Shown piece after piece: positions 18,542 to 41,826 of a DNA stretch of 64,000 bases. Each line of letters begins with the position of its first letter. The first letter of the stretch is position 1. The position numbers were made by a program, and so were the translations under genes. The DNA is taken from assembly GCA_027030245.1 (NCBI GenBank), contig JALVFE010000017.1, positions 1 to 64,000 of the forward strand, given 5' to 3'. The notes beneath the pieces were generated by a model. The model worked only from the letters and a program-made list of their open reading frames with translations, did no database searches and was not told the origin of the DNA. The stretch is from Melioribacteraceae bacterium. Its GTDB lineage: Bacteria > Bacteroidota > Ignavibacteria > Ignavibacteriales > Melioribacteraceae.

Positions 18542-20560
18542 TTATTTACTTTCGTCTTCGCTTGCTTCTTCCGAATCCCCTTTTTCTTCGGATTCTGCGG
18601 AAGATTGTGCTTCCTCAGCTTTTCCGGATTCCGCTTCGGTTTTTTCAGCTTCAGGTTCTGCTTTTGCGGTTTCCTGTTCTGATTTTTCAGCTTCGGAAGT
18701 TTTTGCTTCAGATTCTGTTTTCTTTTCTTCTTTCGCTTCTTCCGATTTTTCGGCTTTTTCTTCGGCAGGTTTTTGCTCGTTATGCTCGTAAGCGTTAAAG
18801 ACCGAAGAATCGAAATTCTGGGTTTCAGCGTTTCTGATATCTTCCACTTTCACTTTATCCAACTTGTGCGTTTTCAGATATTCTTCTATTTCCTCATCGG
18901 ATTTTTCTTTAAGAGCGGCAAGCGAACTTAGCACAATTCTCTTTTTATCTTTATTGAATTCGATAACTATCAAATCCAATTCGGTACCGACGGGGAAATT
19001 GAACGAAAGGTTTTTAATTTTCGCCGTGGAAAGTTGAGTTGCCGGAACAAATCCGTCAACACCTTCCGGTAATTCGGCTATCACACCTTTTTCGATAATC
19101 CGAACAACTTTTCCGGTAACCCTTGTTCCAACCGCATAAAGACTTTCGAATTTATCCCAAGGATTTTCTTCCACTTGTTTATGACCGAGAGAAATTTTTC
19201 GTTGTTCGGCATCAATGCTCAGCACAACTACTTCGAGTTTTTCTCCTTTTTTAACGATTTCTCCGGGATGTCGAACTTTCTTCGTCCAAGACAAATCGGA
19301 AATATGAACCAAACCGTCTATTCCGGGTTCGAGTTCAACGAAGACTCCGAAATTAGTCAAGTTCCTAACGGTTCCAACATGTTTCGATCCGATAGGATAT
19401 TTTTTCATCAGCTCTTGCCAAGGATCCGGAGTAAGTTGTTTCATTCCCAACGAAATTTTCTTTTCGTTTTTATCCAGACTTAAAATCACCGCTTCGACAA
19501 CTTGTCCCATAGAAACGAATTGCGAAGGATGGCTGATGTGTTGAGTCCAGCTCATTTCCGAAATATGAATCAATCCCTCAATTCCTTTTTCGATTTCGAT
19601 AAATGCGCCGTAATCCGTTAGTGAAACAACACGACCGGAAACCTTATCGCCGATTTTATATTTCTCGTCGATATTTTCCCAAGGATGCGGAACCAACTGT
19701 TTCAGACTAAGCGAAATACGTTTTTTCTCTTTGTCGAAATCCGTAACGACGACTTTAATTTTTTCATCGAGTTTTACGATTTCGCTCGGATGGTTAATTC
19801 TTCCCCAACTTAAATCGGTAATATGAATCAAACCGTCCACTCCACCGAGATCTACGAACACACCGAAATCGGTAATGGCTTTAACTATACCTTCCAAAAT
19901 TTGACCTTTCTCGAGTTTTTCGAGAATTTCCCTTCTCTGATCGGAAATCGTTTCTTCGATAAGAGCTTTATGAGAAACAACAACGTTTTCGGTCGGTATA
20001 TTTATCTTAACGATTTTGAAATCCATTGTACGTCCAACAAACGCATCGAAATCCCTAACGGGACGAATATCGATTTGCGAGCCAGGTAAAAATGCTTCGA
20101 TTCCCATCAAATCGACTACCATTCCGCCTTTAATTCTTTTAAGAATTTTTCCGGTAAGAATAGTTTCGTTTTCGTAGGCTTTAATAATTTCAGCCCATAC
20201 CTTCAAGAAATCGGCACGCTTTTTACTTAAAACAAGATTTCCTTCGTCGTCTTCCACACTTTCGATAACAACATCGACTTTGGCGCCGATTGTTAAATCT
20301 TCGGTGGAATTAAAATCGGATTTGGGAATAGTGCCGTCGGACTTAAACCCTACATCGATTACAACATTATCTCCGGCAAATCCCACAATCGTACCGGTTA
20401 TAATTTCACCTTCGGTAAAGTCTTTAAAGGATTCGTCGTATAATTTTGCGAGTGTTTGTAATTCTTCTTCCGAATATTCTTCGGCATTCATGAATTTCAT
20501 ATTTTCCAGAGTCGTTTCCTTTTTTTCATCGAGAGCTTTTTCTTTTTCTGCTTCGCTCAT
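18542..20560 (-). CDS. rpsA: 30S ribosomal protein S1 with six S1 domains and a long acidic tail
   Basis: 672 aa. Six S1 RNA-binding domains at about 52-118, 136-205, 222-290, 307-376, 394-463 and 481-550. Repeats 3-5 are the most canonical (FGVFVDLGGVDGLIHITDLSW, GAFIEIEKGIEGLIHISEMSW, FGVFVELEPGIDGLVHISDLSW). The tail after residue 590 is almost entirely Glu, Lys, Ala and Ser. S1 unwinds and recruits mRNA to the 30S subunit, which matters in a phylum with weak Shine-Dalgarno sites. This gene itself has a full AGGAGG (20565-20570) 4 nt before the ATG, and a long hairpin in its leader. It follows cmk, as in many bacteria. Confidence 0.96.
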   Translation of the reverse strand: MSEAEKEKALDEKKETTLENMKFMNAEEYSEEELQTLAKLYDESFKDFTEGEIITGTIVGFAGDNVVIDVGFKSDGTIPKSDFNSTEDLTIGAKVDVVIESVEDDEGNLVLSKKRADFLKVWAEIIKAYENETILTGKILKRIKGGMVVDLMGIEAFLPGSQIDIRPVRDFDAFVGRTMDFKIVKINIPTENVVVSHKALIEETISDQRREILEKLEKGQILEGIVKAITDFGVFVDLGGVDGLIHITDLSWGRINHPSEIVKLDEKIKVVVTDFDKEKKRISLSLKQLVPHPWENIDEKYKIGDKVSGRVVSLTDYGAFIEIEKGIEGLIHISEMSWTQHISHPSQFVSMGQVVEAVILSLDKNEKKISLGMKQLTPDPWQELMKKYPIGSKHVGTVRNLTNFGVFVELEPGIDGLVHISDLSWTKKVRHPGEIVKKGEKLEVVVLSIDAEQRKISLGHKQVEENPWDKFESLYAVGTRVTGKVVRIIEKGVIAELPEGVDGFVPATQLSTAKIKNLSFNFPVGTELDLIVIEFNKDKKRIVLSSLAALKEKSDEEIEEYLKTHKLDKVKVEDIRNAETQNFDSSVFNAYEHNEQKPAEEKAEKSEEAKEEKKTESEAKTSEAEKSEQETAKAEPEAEKTEAESGKAEEAQSSAESEEKGDSEEASEDESK

Positions 20561-20583
20561 TTAACCTCCTAAAAAAATGGTTT

Positions 20584-20626
20584 ACTGTAATTCCAATTTC
20601 CGCCATCTAAAAATCGGTATTACAGT
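20584..20626 (-). promoter_or_regulatory. Leader hairpin of rpsA, possible S1 autoregulatory element
   Basis: On the minus strand, ACTGTAATACCGATTT can pair with AAATTGGAATTACAGT over 16 positions with one mismatch and one G-U pair, loop about 11 nt. It ends 24 bases before the rpsA ATG, followed by AAACCATTTTTTT and AGGAGG. Position just before the ribosome site suggests translational control. In other bacteria S1 is known to repress its own mRNA; that it does so here is inference. Confidence 0.5.
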
Positions 20627-20663
20627 TATGGTTTTAGTTTAACATAACGTTTAATGATGGCTT

Positions 20664-21353
20664 TTAATTTTGAATTTCTTTTTTAGCTTTTAATTCTTCT
20701 ACCTTTTTAATAATATTTTCAATTTCCTGATCAATTGTCAAATCCGTCGTATCCAGTTCGTAAGCATCTTCTGCTTTTGAAAGCGGGCTTACTTTTCTCT
20801 GACTGTCTATTCTGTCGCGTTTCTGTAAATTTTCTTTTACTTCCTCAAAACTTACATTGTTTCCCTTTGCTTGGTATTCAAGATGTCTGCGCGTTGCTCT
20901 TTCGTCAAGTTCGGCGGTTAAATAAATTTTCAAATCAGCGTTAGGAAAAACAACGGTTGTAGTATCCCTTCCTTCGGCAACCAGATTACCATTTTCACCC
21001 ATTTGGCGTTGAATTTTAACCAATTCCTCTCTTACTTCGGGGATACGACTAATTTCACTAACTTTTGAGTTAACTTCCGGGGTACGAATATGTTCGGTTA
21101 CTTCTTCCCCGTTTACAAAAACTCTGGTTTCGCCGTTTTCAAATTTCAATTCAATTTCTATATTCTTCACCAAATCAATAACGGCGTTTGTATCATCCAC
21201 AATATTATTGCGGAGAGCAAGATAAGTAATTGCGCGGTACATTGCACCGGTATCAACGTATGTAAAACCGAGTTTTTCTGCCAAATGCTTGGCTACGGAG
21301 CTTTTACCGGATGCTGCCGGCCCGTCTATTGCTATAATTATTTTTTTACACAT
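20664..21353 (-). CDS. cmk: Cytidylate kinase
   Basis: 229 aa, normal length. Phosphorylates CMP and dCMP with ATP. P-loop AIDGPAASGKSSVAKHL at 8-24, GFTYVDTGAMYRAIT, VAEGRDTTTVVFPNADLKIYL and RDRIDSQRKVSPLSKAEDAYELDTT are all characteristic of Cmk. The GRDTTT form (rather than GRDIGT) is a mild variation. Starts at ATG 21353; rpsA lies 103 bases downstream on the same strand, the classic cmk-rpsA pairing. Confidence 0.95.
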   Translation of the reverse strand: MCKKIIIAIDGPAASGKSSVAKHLAEKLGFTYVDTGAMYRAITYLALRNNIVDDTNAVIDLVKNIEIELKFENGETRVFVNGEEVTEHIRTPEVNSKVSEISRIPEVREELVKIQRQMGENGNLVAEGRDTTTVVFPNADLKIYLTAELDERATRRHLEYQAKGNNVSFEEVKENLQKRDRIDSQRKVSPLSKAEDAYELDTTDLTIDQEIENIIKKVEELKAKKEIQN

Positions 21354-21471
21354 AGACTTTAAAGTTAACTATTTCTTTTTTGAGTATCAATAAAAAATTG
21401 TCTAAATTTATTTGCTATCTATTTGTAAAATAATAACTTAGTTTTACTAAAACAAAATAAAGAATTTCAGA

Positions 21472-21723
21472 ATGAGTTTACTCAGTTGGATTTTAGTCGG
21501 TGCCATTTCGGGATGGTTGGCAAACATAATTACAAACAATAAAAAACGACCCGGATGTTTTTTTAACATTGTTTTGGGAATTATAGGTGCATTTGTTGGC
21601 GGTTTTCTAATGAAAGTGATGGGCGGACAGGGGGTTACCGGTTTTAATTTATGGAGCATAATCGTTGCAACTTTGGGCGCCGTTGTTTTGATTTGGGTTG
21701 TTCGCTCGATAAGAGCGGATTAA
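21472..21723 (+). CDS. GlsB/YeaQ/YmgE-family small membrane protein
   Basis: 83 aa with three hydrophobic segments: ILVGAISGWLANII, FFNIVLGIIGAFVGGFLM and LWSIIVATLGAVVLIWVV. The pattern and the GAxxGxxGGF motif match the transglycosylase-associated / YeaQ family, linked elsewhere to stress response. Divergent from cmk; its stop codon overlaps the stop of suhB on the other strand. Confidence 0.88.
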   Translation: MSLLSWILVGAISGWLANIITNNKKRPGCFFNIVLGIIGAFVGGFLMKVMGGQGVTGFNLWSIIVATLGAVVLIWVVRSIRAD

Positions 21724-39732: not shown

Positions 39733-41826
39733 TTATCTATAAAACATATAACGGTTATCCACAATATCCGCTTCTTCTTTTAATTTTTTAATCCACTCGC
39801 TGAAAAAGCGGGCTTTCTTTTGCTTAAGTAAATTATCCCGTAAGAATTTCTTTTGAAGGGAATACATAGTAGAATCGAATTTCGTTCGCTGTGTAACTTT
39901 AATCAAGTAACTACCGATATTACTTTTAATAGGGTCTGAAACTTTACCGATTTCTGCCGTTAAAGCATAATTGATAAATGCATAATCCCTGCCGACTCCG
40001 GGAATGGTACCCGTTGCCGTAAAGTCCTTAACGTTACTTACCCTCGCTTTCGGATAATATGTTTTAACCATGGTAACGTCTCCGTTATCACCGCCAATTT
40101 TTTTCTTGGCATCCGCAGCCATTTCGAGAGTTTTTTCTATTTTCTTTTCTTTTTTCAGCTTTCTCGAAATCTGGGTTTTTACTTCTTCCAATGGTTTATA
40201 TCCGGCAGGTAAAATTTCGGAAATCATCGCAACAACATATCCGGCGGGAACTTTATAAACATCGCTAACGTCTCCCACACCGTTTTCAAAGGTGAATTTC
40301 AACAGTGCCTTGCTGTTTCCTATTCCCGGTATGGAACGGGCGTCTTCGGTAAAAGGTAAAGATTCAACCACTTTATATTTCATCAATTTTGCTTCGTTTT
40401 CAAAATCATTTTTTTGTGCAAGATAAGCAAAATCCTTTGCCGCATTATAAATTTCGTCAAGCGTAGTGGCTGAAGGTTTGATTTGATTTACTATTTTTTC
40501 AATTACATATTTATTATTTGTTCTTCCCGTAACCTTTATTACATGATAACCGAATTGAGTTCTAACAGGTTTTAAAATTTCTCCTATTCTGCCTTTGAAC
40601 GCAACACGTTCGAATTCCGGTACCATCAACCCTTTTGAAAACCAACCCAAGTCACCGCCAAAACGCGATGTACCGTCATCCGATTTTTCACGGGCAAGCT
40701 CTTCGAAATTGGCACCCTTTTTAAGTTCATTATAAATTTCATAAATTTTCTTTTTTGCTTCGTCTTCATTATTATCTTTTACCTTAACTAAAATATGGGA
40801 AGCACGTACAACCGGTTCTTTGCTTTTAACTTTCTTGACCAAACGGTAAACAACATAACCTTCGTCGGTCAACACCGGACCAACAACCGTACCGGGTTTA
40901 GCTTTATACAACAAGTTTGCCGCTTCTTCCGGCAACTCATCTAATGCAACCGTTTGTTGCGCATAAGGTTTATCGGAATAAATTTCAACGTAAGTTTTGA
41001 ATGTACCGGTATCGTTTTGCAATTTGGAAACTATTGCTTCCAAATTTTTTCTGATGTACATCGAATCATCCGCCGAAGGTTGTTTTTTGAAGAGGACGTA
41101 TTTTAATTTTCTTCGTTCTTCTAATTTGTAATCCTCTTTATGCTCATCGTAATAATTTTGAATTTCGTCATCCGAAACGGAAACTAGGGAATCCGGAACA
41201 ATTAAAAAGCTGAACAAAGCCCAATCGGCGCTAATTTTAATATTTTGATCGATAAATTTTCTTTTAATTTCACCTTCCGAAACAATGACCGAAGCTGCCA
41301 GATAATCTTGAAGTTTTTGTTGAAGCAATTGTTGACGTATTAAATTTTCCGCTTCAATCATTGCTTGTTTATTTTTCGGATCCATAATAGCGGCATCGTA
41401 AGCTTCGCGGTTGAAATTGCCTGTGGAATCTATGAAATATTGTTTCAATATTTGAGGCGGATTAGGTCCTTTAATCGCATCAACTATTTCCTGATCAGTA
41501 ACTGTAATACCGTATTCTTTCATTTTCTCGTCAATCAGTTTTTGAGTTACCAACGCATCCCAAACTTGATCTCTAAAAGCGTCCATTTGGTCTTCGCTTA
41601 TATCTTTTCCGGTCTGAGCAACTTGATTTTTCCGGTATTGTTCAACCATTTTGGCAAAATCTTGATAAGTTATCTCTTCACCGTTTATCTCTCCAACTAT
41701 ATTATTGTTGGCTCTAGCCAATGTTGTTATTTTAGAGTCGGACAAAACCATAAAAAGCACAAACAATCCGCCCACCGATAAAATAAACCAAGGAGCTAAA
41801 CTCCGCATCTTAGCCATCATACCCAT
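39733..41826 (-). CDS. PpiD/SurA-type periplasmic peptidyl-prolyl isomerase and chaperone
   Basis: 697 aa. One N-terminal membrane helix (LAPWFILSVGGLFVLFMVL) anchors it in the inner membrane. A SurA N-like chaperone domain follows (about 40-200; VGEINGEEITYQDFAKMV), then a parvulin domain at about 340-440 (VRASHILVKVKDN ... GGDLGWFSKGLMVPEFE ... FGYHVIKV) and a second degenerate PPIase-like region near 470-660. PpiD helps newly exported outer-membrane proteins fold. AGGAGG lies 11 nt before the first ATG; in-frame ATGs two and three codons later could also serve. Strong terminator downstream. Confidence 0.9.
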   Translation of the reverse strand: MGMMAKMRSLAPWFILSVGGLFVLFMVLSDSKITTLARANNNIVGEINGEEITYQDFAKMVEQYRKNQVAQTGKDISEDQMDAFRDQVWDALVTQKLIDEKMKEYGITVTDQEIVDAIKGPNPPQILKQYFIDSTGNFNREAYDAAIMDPKNKQAMIEAENLIRQQLLQQKLQDYLAASVIVSEGEIKRKFIDQNIKISADWALFSFLIVPDSLVSVSDDEIQNYYDEHKEDYKLEERRKLKYVLFKKQPSADDSMYIRKNLEAIVSKLQNDTGTFKTYVEIYSDKPYAQQTVALDELPEEAANLLYKAKPGTVVGPVLTDEGYVVYRLVKKVKSKEPVVRASHILVKVKDNNEDEAKKKIYEIYNELKKGANFEELAREKSDDGTSRFGGDLGWFSKGLMVPEFERVAFKGRIGEILKPVRTQFGYHVIKVTGRTNNKYVIEKIVNQIKPSATTLDEIYNAAKDFAYLAQKNDFENEAKLMKYKVVESLPFTEDARSIPGIGNSKALLKFTFENGVGDVSDVYKVPAGYVVAMISEILPAGYKPLEEVKTQISRKLKKEKKIEKTLEMAADAKKKIGGDNGDVTMVKTYYPKARVSNVKDFTATGTIPGVGRDYAFINYALTAEIGKVSDPIKSNIGSYLIKVTQRTKFDSTMYSLQKKFLRDNLLKQKKARFFSEWIKKLKEEADIVDNRYMFYR

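Follow-up and report, generated by a model that had tools for sequence, protein, structure and literature searches.

Autogenous control of rpsA, the gene for ribosomal protein bS1, has been described for the gammaproteobacteria, where the bS1 of E. coli acts as a repressor of its own mRNA, which has no canonical Shine-Dalgarno (SD) sequence (PMC10931766, section 2.1.2). According to the same source the absence of a canonical SD is essential, and repression by S1 is abolished when the E. coli gene is given one. E. coli S1 binds pseudoknots with nanomolar affinity (PMC7708055; its affinity for pseudoknots is also noted in PMC10931766), and the pseudoknots that it binds include examples from SELEX, tmRNA, preQ1 and tisB (PMC7708055). 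On the 30S subunit it melts the rpsO pseudoknot, probably via the AU-rich connecting loop, and the need for S1 in docking depends on the strength of the SD (PMC3858243). Pseudoknots also act on the translation start in the E. coli rpsO (S15) and S4 alpha-operon leaders, where they include the ribosome binding site, and in the mycobacterial rpsO leader a pseudoknot upstream of the initiation site is required for autogenous control (PMC10931766). In the Bacteroidota, a lineage with many SD-less genes, the bS21 gene rpsU has an unusually strong SD and is controlled through loss of bS21, which frees the anti-SD; the passages of that article drawn on here mention no leader fold (PMC9976891). Lineage-limited leaders of ribosomal protein genes have been found by covariation, the Chlorobi S6:S18 leader among them and some in related bacteria, and none of the 20 in the table of that survey is an S1 leader (Eckert and Weinberg 2020, PMC7247131).

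In the stretch of 64,000 nucleotides analysed here (the window), the region between cmk and rpsA is predicted to encode a pseudoknotted mRNA leader, which we think is probably an S1-responsive ribosomal leader for bS1. Like the leader of E. coli it precedes rpsA, is structured with AU-rich single strands and has bS1 as its proposed ligand. The E. coli leader is described as stacked hairpins and may thus differ in fold from the H-type pseudoknot predicted here; in contrast to the E. coli leader, the one here is followed by GGAG or GGAGG in all 57 of the leaders compared below, or in 51 of 57 when the start is chosen blind to the SD. It shares with the rpsO and S4 alpha-operon leaders the use of a pseudoknot, but here the pseudoknot lies wholly 5' of the SD and the genes differ. 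In its position upstream of the initiation site it resembles the pseudoknot of the mycobacterial rpsO leader, which belongs to S15 and to another phylum. With rpsU it has in common a strong SD in front of a ribosomal protein gene, and with the leaders of Eckert and Weinberg its restriction to a lineage and its detection by covariation. The pseudoknots known to be bound by S1 are not rpsA leaders and vary in topology. No rpsA or S1 leader was found for these bacteria in the literature searched, and Rfam 15 gave no match at the gathering score in the window, none with an E value up to 5 in 20400–20800 and none in 20 leader loci from this and related genomes. An earlier note on this DNA had thought the leader undescribed, and it appears to be so, an earlier description elsewhere being possible.

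All elements of the leader lie on the minus strand. rpsA is an ORF at 18542–20560, with six matches to the S1 domain (PF00575) inside it and an acidic tail, and the same-strand gene upstream, at 20664–21353, was named cmk (cytidylate kinase) by sequence recognition. Further upstream, on the opposite strand, positions 21472–21723 hold an 83-residue, glycine-rich, membrane-like ORF, which we take to resemble a GlsB/YeaQ-type protein. Two bases 3' of the cmk stop is strand A (GCCAUC, 20656–20661), and it is followed by a linker, L1 (20627–20655), which is drawn single stranded and contains the conserved motif AUGUUAAACUAAA at 20645–20633. The 5' strand (20609–20626) and 3' strand (20584–20601) of hairpin B read ACUGUAAU.A.CCGAUUUUU, loop AGAUGGC and GGAAAUUGG.A.AUUACAGU from 20626 to 20584, making 8 + 9 = 17 pairs around a single A-A mismatch; drawn in this way the hairpin has an energy of −15.2 kcal/mol. 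Strand A' (GAUGGC, 20602–20607) takes up six of the seven positions of the loop and pairs with strand A, 48 bases further 5'. This pairing of A with the loop makes the fold an H-type pseudoknot. A spacer with a U-run (20571–20583) then leads to a full SD, AGGAGG (20565–20570).

The hairpin itself had been reported in the earlier note as a near-perfect one of 16 pairs ending 24 bases before the ATG; it exists, with a count of 17 pairs and one mismatch and with 23 bases to the ATG. The U-run (UUUUUUU) and the AGGAGG at 20570–20565 lie within those 23 bases as that note had described. The interval that it gave, 20558–20626, holds the hairpin and misses the 5' part of the element, namely strand A (20661–20656) and the linker (20655–20627). 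Folding of these 69 bases gave −18.6 kcal/mol compared with a mean of −8.6 for shuffled sequences (z −4.23, with none of 200 shuffles as good), and with other flanks the z value of the hairpin region was −3.83 (70 bases), −2.86 (91), −2.29 (141) and −1.91 (114).

rpsA was searched for in 58 genomes, the genome of the window and 57 relatives; G023 gave weak matches only and was dropped, leaving 57 usable leaders (our own and 56 others). These were aligned with MAFFT; L032, L045 and L054 had their 5' ends placed by hand, and L053 is probably out of register at A'. The leaders have a common order: A, the linker with AUGUUAAACUAAA, the 5' strand of B, A' in the loop, the 3' strand of B, a spacer rich in U (with medians of 13 bases for its length and one half for its U content), the SD and the start codon, the element ending a median of 22 bases before the start. 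The linker is the best conserved sequence of the element, with nine of the 13 motif columns at 1.3–2.0 bits and two columns invariant. In the A/A' helix 93.6% of the cells in the alignment are paired, and changes on both sides are seen at all six pairs, in 11, 10, 5, 13, 12 and 7 sequences, respectively. Compensatory changes of the kind that the earlier note had proposed to look for are thus present in the relatives. The outer four pairs of hairpin B are paired in 85.4% of cells and also have both-side changes; a shifting register kept the inner part of the hairpin out of the alignment test. Over the whole structure (A/A' and outer B) pairing amounts to 90.4%, falling to 25–54% when the partners are slid by one to three columns. 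Neither the covariation score nor the percentage paired was reached by any of 500 shuffles, while on weaker control measures the count of pairs with both-side changes was reached by 61 of the 500 and the count of pair types by six. Unguided, RNAalifold predicted five of the A/A' pairs.

The 57 leaders contain 21 distinct A cores, and in every one of them its own A/A' combination is better than the median swap with a different core (means −15.2 and −8.9 kcal/mol). Placed on a quick tree of the rpsA protein, built on 146–220 residues, the pair types have changed at least 11, 6, 5, 11, 9 and 6 times at the six A/A' positions and the five-base A/A' core at least 28 times. With A' blocked, hairpin B still folds in 57 of 57 leaders, at −4.1 to −18.5 kcal/mol (the A/A' of L032 being set by hand), so the two helices are compatible on paper. 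In the predicted fold, therefore, the loop pairs with a flanking strand and both helices covary, the arrangement expected of an H-type pseudoknot. A pseudoknot energy score put 49 of 57 leaders past the 5% level of 114 shuffles in one test, and in a second test 52 of the 57 outscored 19 or all of the 20 shuffles made from each, compared with one of 15 leaders of other classes. Because these energy scores are only moderate, the case rests on the covariation, and by this comparative measure the pseudoknot leader is a conserved, covarying RNA.

The earlier note had seen in the hairpin a structure that could block the ribosome site. Of its proposal of a regulatory rpsA leader, the conservation, the covariation and the tie to rpsA stand, while blocking of the SD by the hairpin is unsupported as written, the SD lying outside the hairpin and the conserved feature being the pairing of the loop with an upstream strand. 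A simple occlusion of the SD would have in its favour that in the fold of the window GGUU of the SD region is taken up in pairs with AACC, and that the SD has a predicted openness of 0.27 in the window and a median of 0.48 over the 57 leaders, just 23 of which exceed 0.5. These SD-covering pairs are not, by inspection, common to the 57 leaders, and we regard a simple occluding hairpin as very improbable, although, with the predicted openness so variable, some local occlusion of the SD may still occur. Nor is the hairpin readily seen as an intrinsic terminator or attenuator. An AU-rich hairpin and a UUUUUUU tract are both present in the window, but a terminator would be expected to have a GC-rich stem running straight into the U-run, whereas here stem and U-run are six bases apart; UUUU occurs in 25 of the 57 spacers, and the A/A' pairing would go unexplained; we give this reading almost no credence. 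The candidate was rejected after a terminator scan, which gave no minus-strand site in 20400–21500. As strand A covaries, the transcripts that matter must include it, and the main transcription start is accordingly unlikely to lie downstream of the hairpin.

The distribution of the element ties it to rpsA. A covariance model (R1) of A/A' had one strong match in the genome of the window, the rpsA leader, the next best having an E value of 2.6. At an E value of 0.01 the model matched 58 of 294 genomes of the class, with exactly one match in each; 55 of these belong to the same order and three to other orders, and 25 had not been used in building the model. Four genomes of the order are listed without a match, all from the model-building set and missed under the stricter filters. 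The 216 further matchless genomes are apparently of other orders, judged by listing order, which would give 55 of 59 within the order and three of 235 outside it. In 30 of 30 loci checked rpsA is just downstream on the same strand, its first codon lying 31–68 bases from the midpoint of the match. A scan of named genomes with an exact pattern gave 35 matches, of which 18 precede rpsA, in records titled Ignavibacteriales, Ignavibacteriaceae, Ignavibacteria(e), Melioribacter(aceae) or Bacteroidetes bacterium, and these names place the order with the Ignavibacteriales. No rpsA is within reach of the remaining 17, a number close to what a rough estimate gives for chance matches.

The gene upstream is less constant. 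A tblastn match to cmk was found in the fetched loci of 43 of the 57 leaders; two of the other 14 loci have too little upstream sequence, and of the remaining 12 the upstream frames of 11 were read, nine being ispH-like, one nucleotidyltransferase-like and one uninterpretable by sequence recognition. Since the leader is kept whether cmk or an ispH-like gene lies upstream, it belongs to rpsA. What is seen is thus a covarying structure 5' of a ribosomal protein gene that is consistently associated with that gene, rpsA, and not with the neighbour, the pattern by which ribosomal leaders are recognised. This also bears on a role in mRNA stability or processing at the junction of cmk and rpsA. The placement of the element would suit such a role, since 54 leaders have an upstream ORF and in 49 of these its stop is no more than 27 bases from strand A, but such a role would predict neither the conserved linker nor the tie to rpsA after a change of the upstream gene, and we consider it hardly credible. 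Ribosomes terminating upstream may interfere with the pairing of A, and compaction of the gene junction explains the position of the stop equally well; as in five leaders the stop is at least 72 bases away, a coupling through the upstream stop can only be suggested.

A leader tied to rpsA might instead be read by a different ligand, another ribosomal protein or a small molecule, that controls the gene. The combination of a conserved linker with a pseudoknot would seem to resemble riboswitches and ribosomal leaders in general, and the evidence is comparative in kind. On the other hand, rpsA is the only downstream gene seen tied to the leader, and the 'Only' rule would assign a leader with a single ribosomal protein gene to that protein, the rule set being partly uncertain according to its authors (PMC7247131, section 5). 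Control by another ligand we therefore hold to be improbable, and bS1 itself is the ligand that we prefer.

Beyond the order the picture is more varied. Leaders from the other orders of the class have diverged in sequence and often keep the same layout: among 60 class leaders scored outside the order (L109 was left out), 32 outscored 19 or all of the 20 shuffles made from each, compared with one of 15 leaders of other classes, the automatically picked helix not always being the preferred one. By eye, A/A' is clear in families f4, f5, f9, f10, f13, f14 and f16–f22, several of which consist of one leader each. In f6, f7, f8, f11, f12 and f15 of the same class it is absent or doubtful by eye though rpsA is present, which counts against the reading as an S1 leader. 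Three leaders of f7 (L097, L190 and L191) have a conserved UCCACUAAA(C/U)CAAUAACC and, shortly before AGGAGG, a hairpin; no A/A' pairing is clear in them. Elsewhere in the phylum the pseudoknot layout was not seen by eye in any of 20 leaders (L149–L168), two of which have five or more SD bases, the chosen start being uncertain in some.

Other rpsA leaders of different construction were noticed during the comparison. L137–L140 and L142–L148, of a group (L137–L148) that we guess is probably the Chlorobia, carry another kind of conserved leader roughly 60 bases before rpsA, with AACC(n)UAAAACC followed by a covarying hairpin. The loop of this hairpin, CUCUC, is invariant and complementary to GAGAG at the SD in 11 of 11 leaders aligned, possibly forming a pseudoknot over the SD; as the loop pairing never varies in the 11 leaders, it is a putative one. 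The eight of these loci that were scanned gave no Rfam match. L155, L156 and L158 have in common AACCUUAUCCCAC...GUUGUGAGGUAAAAC before rpsA without a clear SD, and perhaps carry another structured leader.

The SD that follows the pseudoknot is unusually strong. Full SD sites had been called uncommon in the window by the earlier note, and this is borne out, GGAGG preceding six of 51 simple ORFs and AGGAGG two, with rpsA among both. The only other simple ORF of the window with a full AGGAGG is at 39736–41826 (minus). In a sample of about 464 kb of the same genome GGAGG precedes 18 of 351 simple ORFs. The duplex at the rpsA start site has an energy of −11.1 kcal/mol, calculated with an anti-SD that we take to be canonical; a search of the genome for the 3' end of the 16S rRNA gave no match to SSU rRNA. 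This energy is matched or exceeded in eight of the 351 ORFs, rpsA included, and in none of 351 control positions. SD-like pairing is found in a minority of the genes of this genome, 25–26% reaching −6 or better compared with 7% of controls. Among the 57 leaders GGAGG is present in 51 and GGAG in six, mostly four bases from the start, the starts having been chosen partly by the SD. With starts chosen blind to the SD, as the most upstream in-frame ATG, GGAGG is retained in 45 and GGAG in six, and the two ways of choosing agree in 51 of 57. The rpsU gene (bS21) of the same genome, at about 1640–1690 on the minus strand of C32 (L189), also has an extended SD, of eight bases, GAGGUGAU, upstream of what is apparently a TTG start. 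This matches the strong-SD signature of rpsU in the Bacteroidota and Chlorobia (PMC9976891) and is consistent with autoregulation by bS21.

The strength of the SD is also relevant to a role for the leader as a standby site or enhancer, in which the pseudoknot and the AU-rich linker would recruit the 30S subunit via bound S1 and raise translation of rpsA with no feedback. The upstream edge of a 30S subunit at the start codon is expected near the end of the element, as such a role would require. There is also a precedent in tisB mRNA, where S1-dependent standby requires a pseudoknot (PMC7708055). However, an aid to recruitment seems least needed next to SDs as strong and closely spaced as these, and the element occurs once in each matching genome, at rpsA where checked, and not before other highly translated genes. 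We think a standby site unlikely, while giving it some weight.

The reading that we prefer is that the leader most likely senses the level of S1 and adjusts the production of S1. We infer autoregulation by bS1 from the arrangement of the leader and from the behaviour of S1 in E. coli, and the same holds for the binding of S1, for the sign of the control and for what the SD does. In this scheme bS1 would bind the pseudoknot through the AU-rich linker. With free S1 in abundance, the protein would hold the fold on or beside the platform of the 30S subunit, docking of the start site would be blocked and translation of rpsA would fall. When S1 is scarce the strong SD would let 30S subunits, even those poor in S1, dock without its help, so that synthesis of S1 could recover. 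Ribosomes ending translation of cmk or ispH beside strand A might delay the pairing of A and so couple both genes. The competition mechanism of E. coli cannot simply carry over, since repression is lost there when a canonical SD is supplied and the SD here is strong. Moreover, as S1 can melt a pseudoknot on the 30S subunit, it can also activate, which counts against a fixed repressive sign.

A wider and doubtful proposal is that rpsA in the Ignavibacteria is a new type of S1 gauge, in which the strong SD would reserve the gene for ribosomes that dock through the SD, being poor in S1 or having a freed anti-SD, and the pseudoknot would sense free or ribosome-bound S1. Together with rpsU it would then exemplify ribosomal protein genes translated by ribosomes that lack the encoded protein, the differently built leaders elsewhere in the phylum, probably in the Chlorobia, being variants. 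Autoregulation of S1 is a classic example of how a protein that hardly discriminates between sequences can find its own mRNA. A leader for S1 that combines deep covariation with a strong SD suggests at least one other solution to this, in a lineage where the use of the SD is in flux. With six covarying pairs, the leader would provide a compact, mutable RNA in which to study how S1 recognises pseudoknots and how ribosomes that lack a protein may be sensed.
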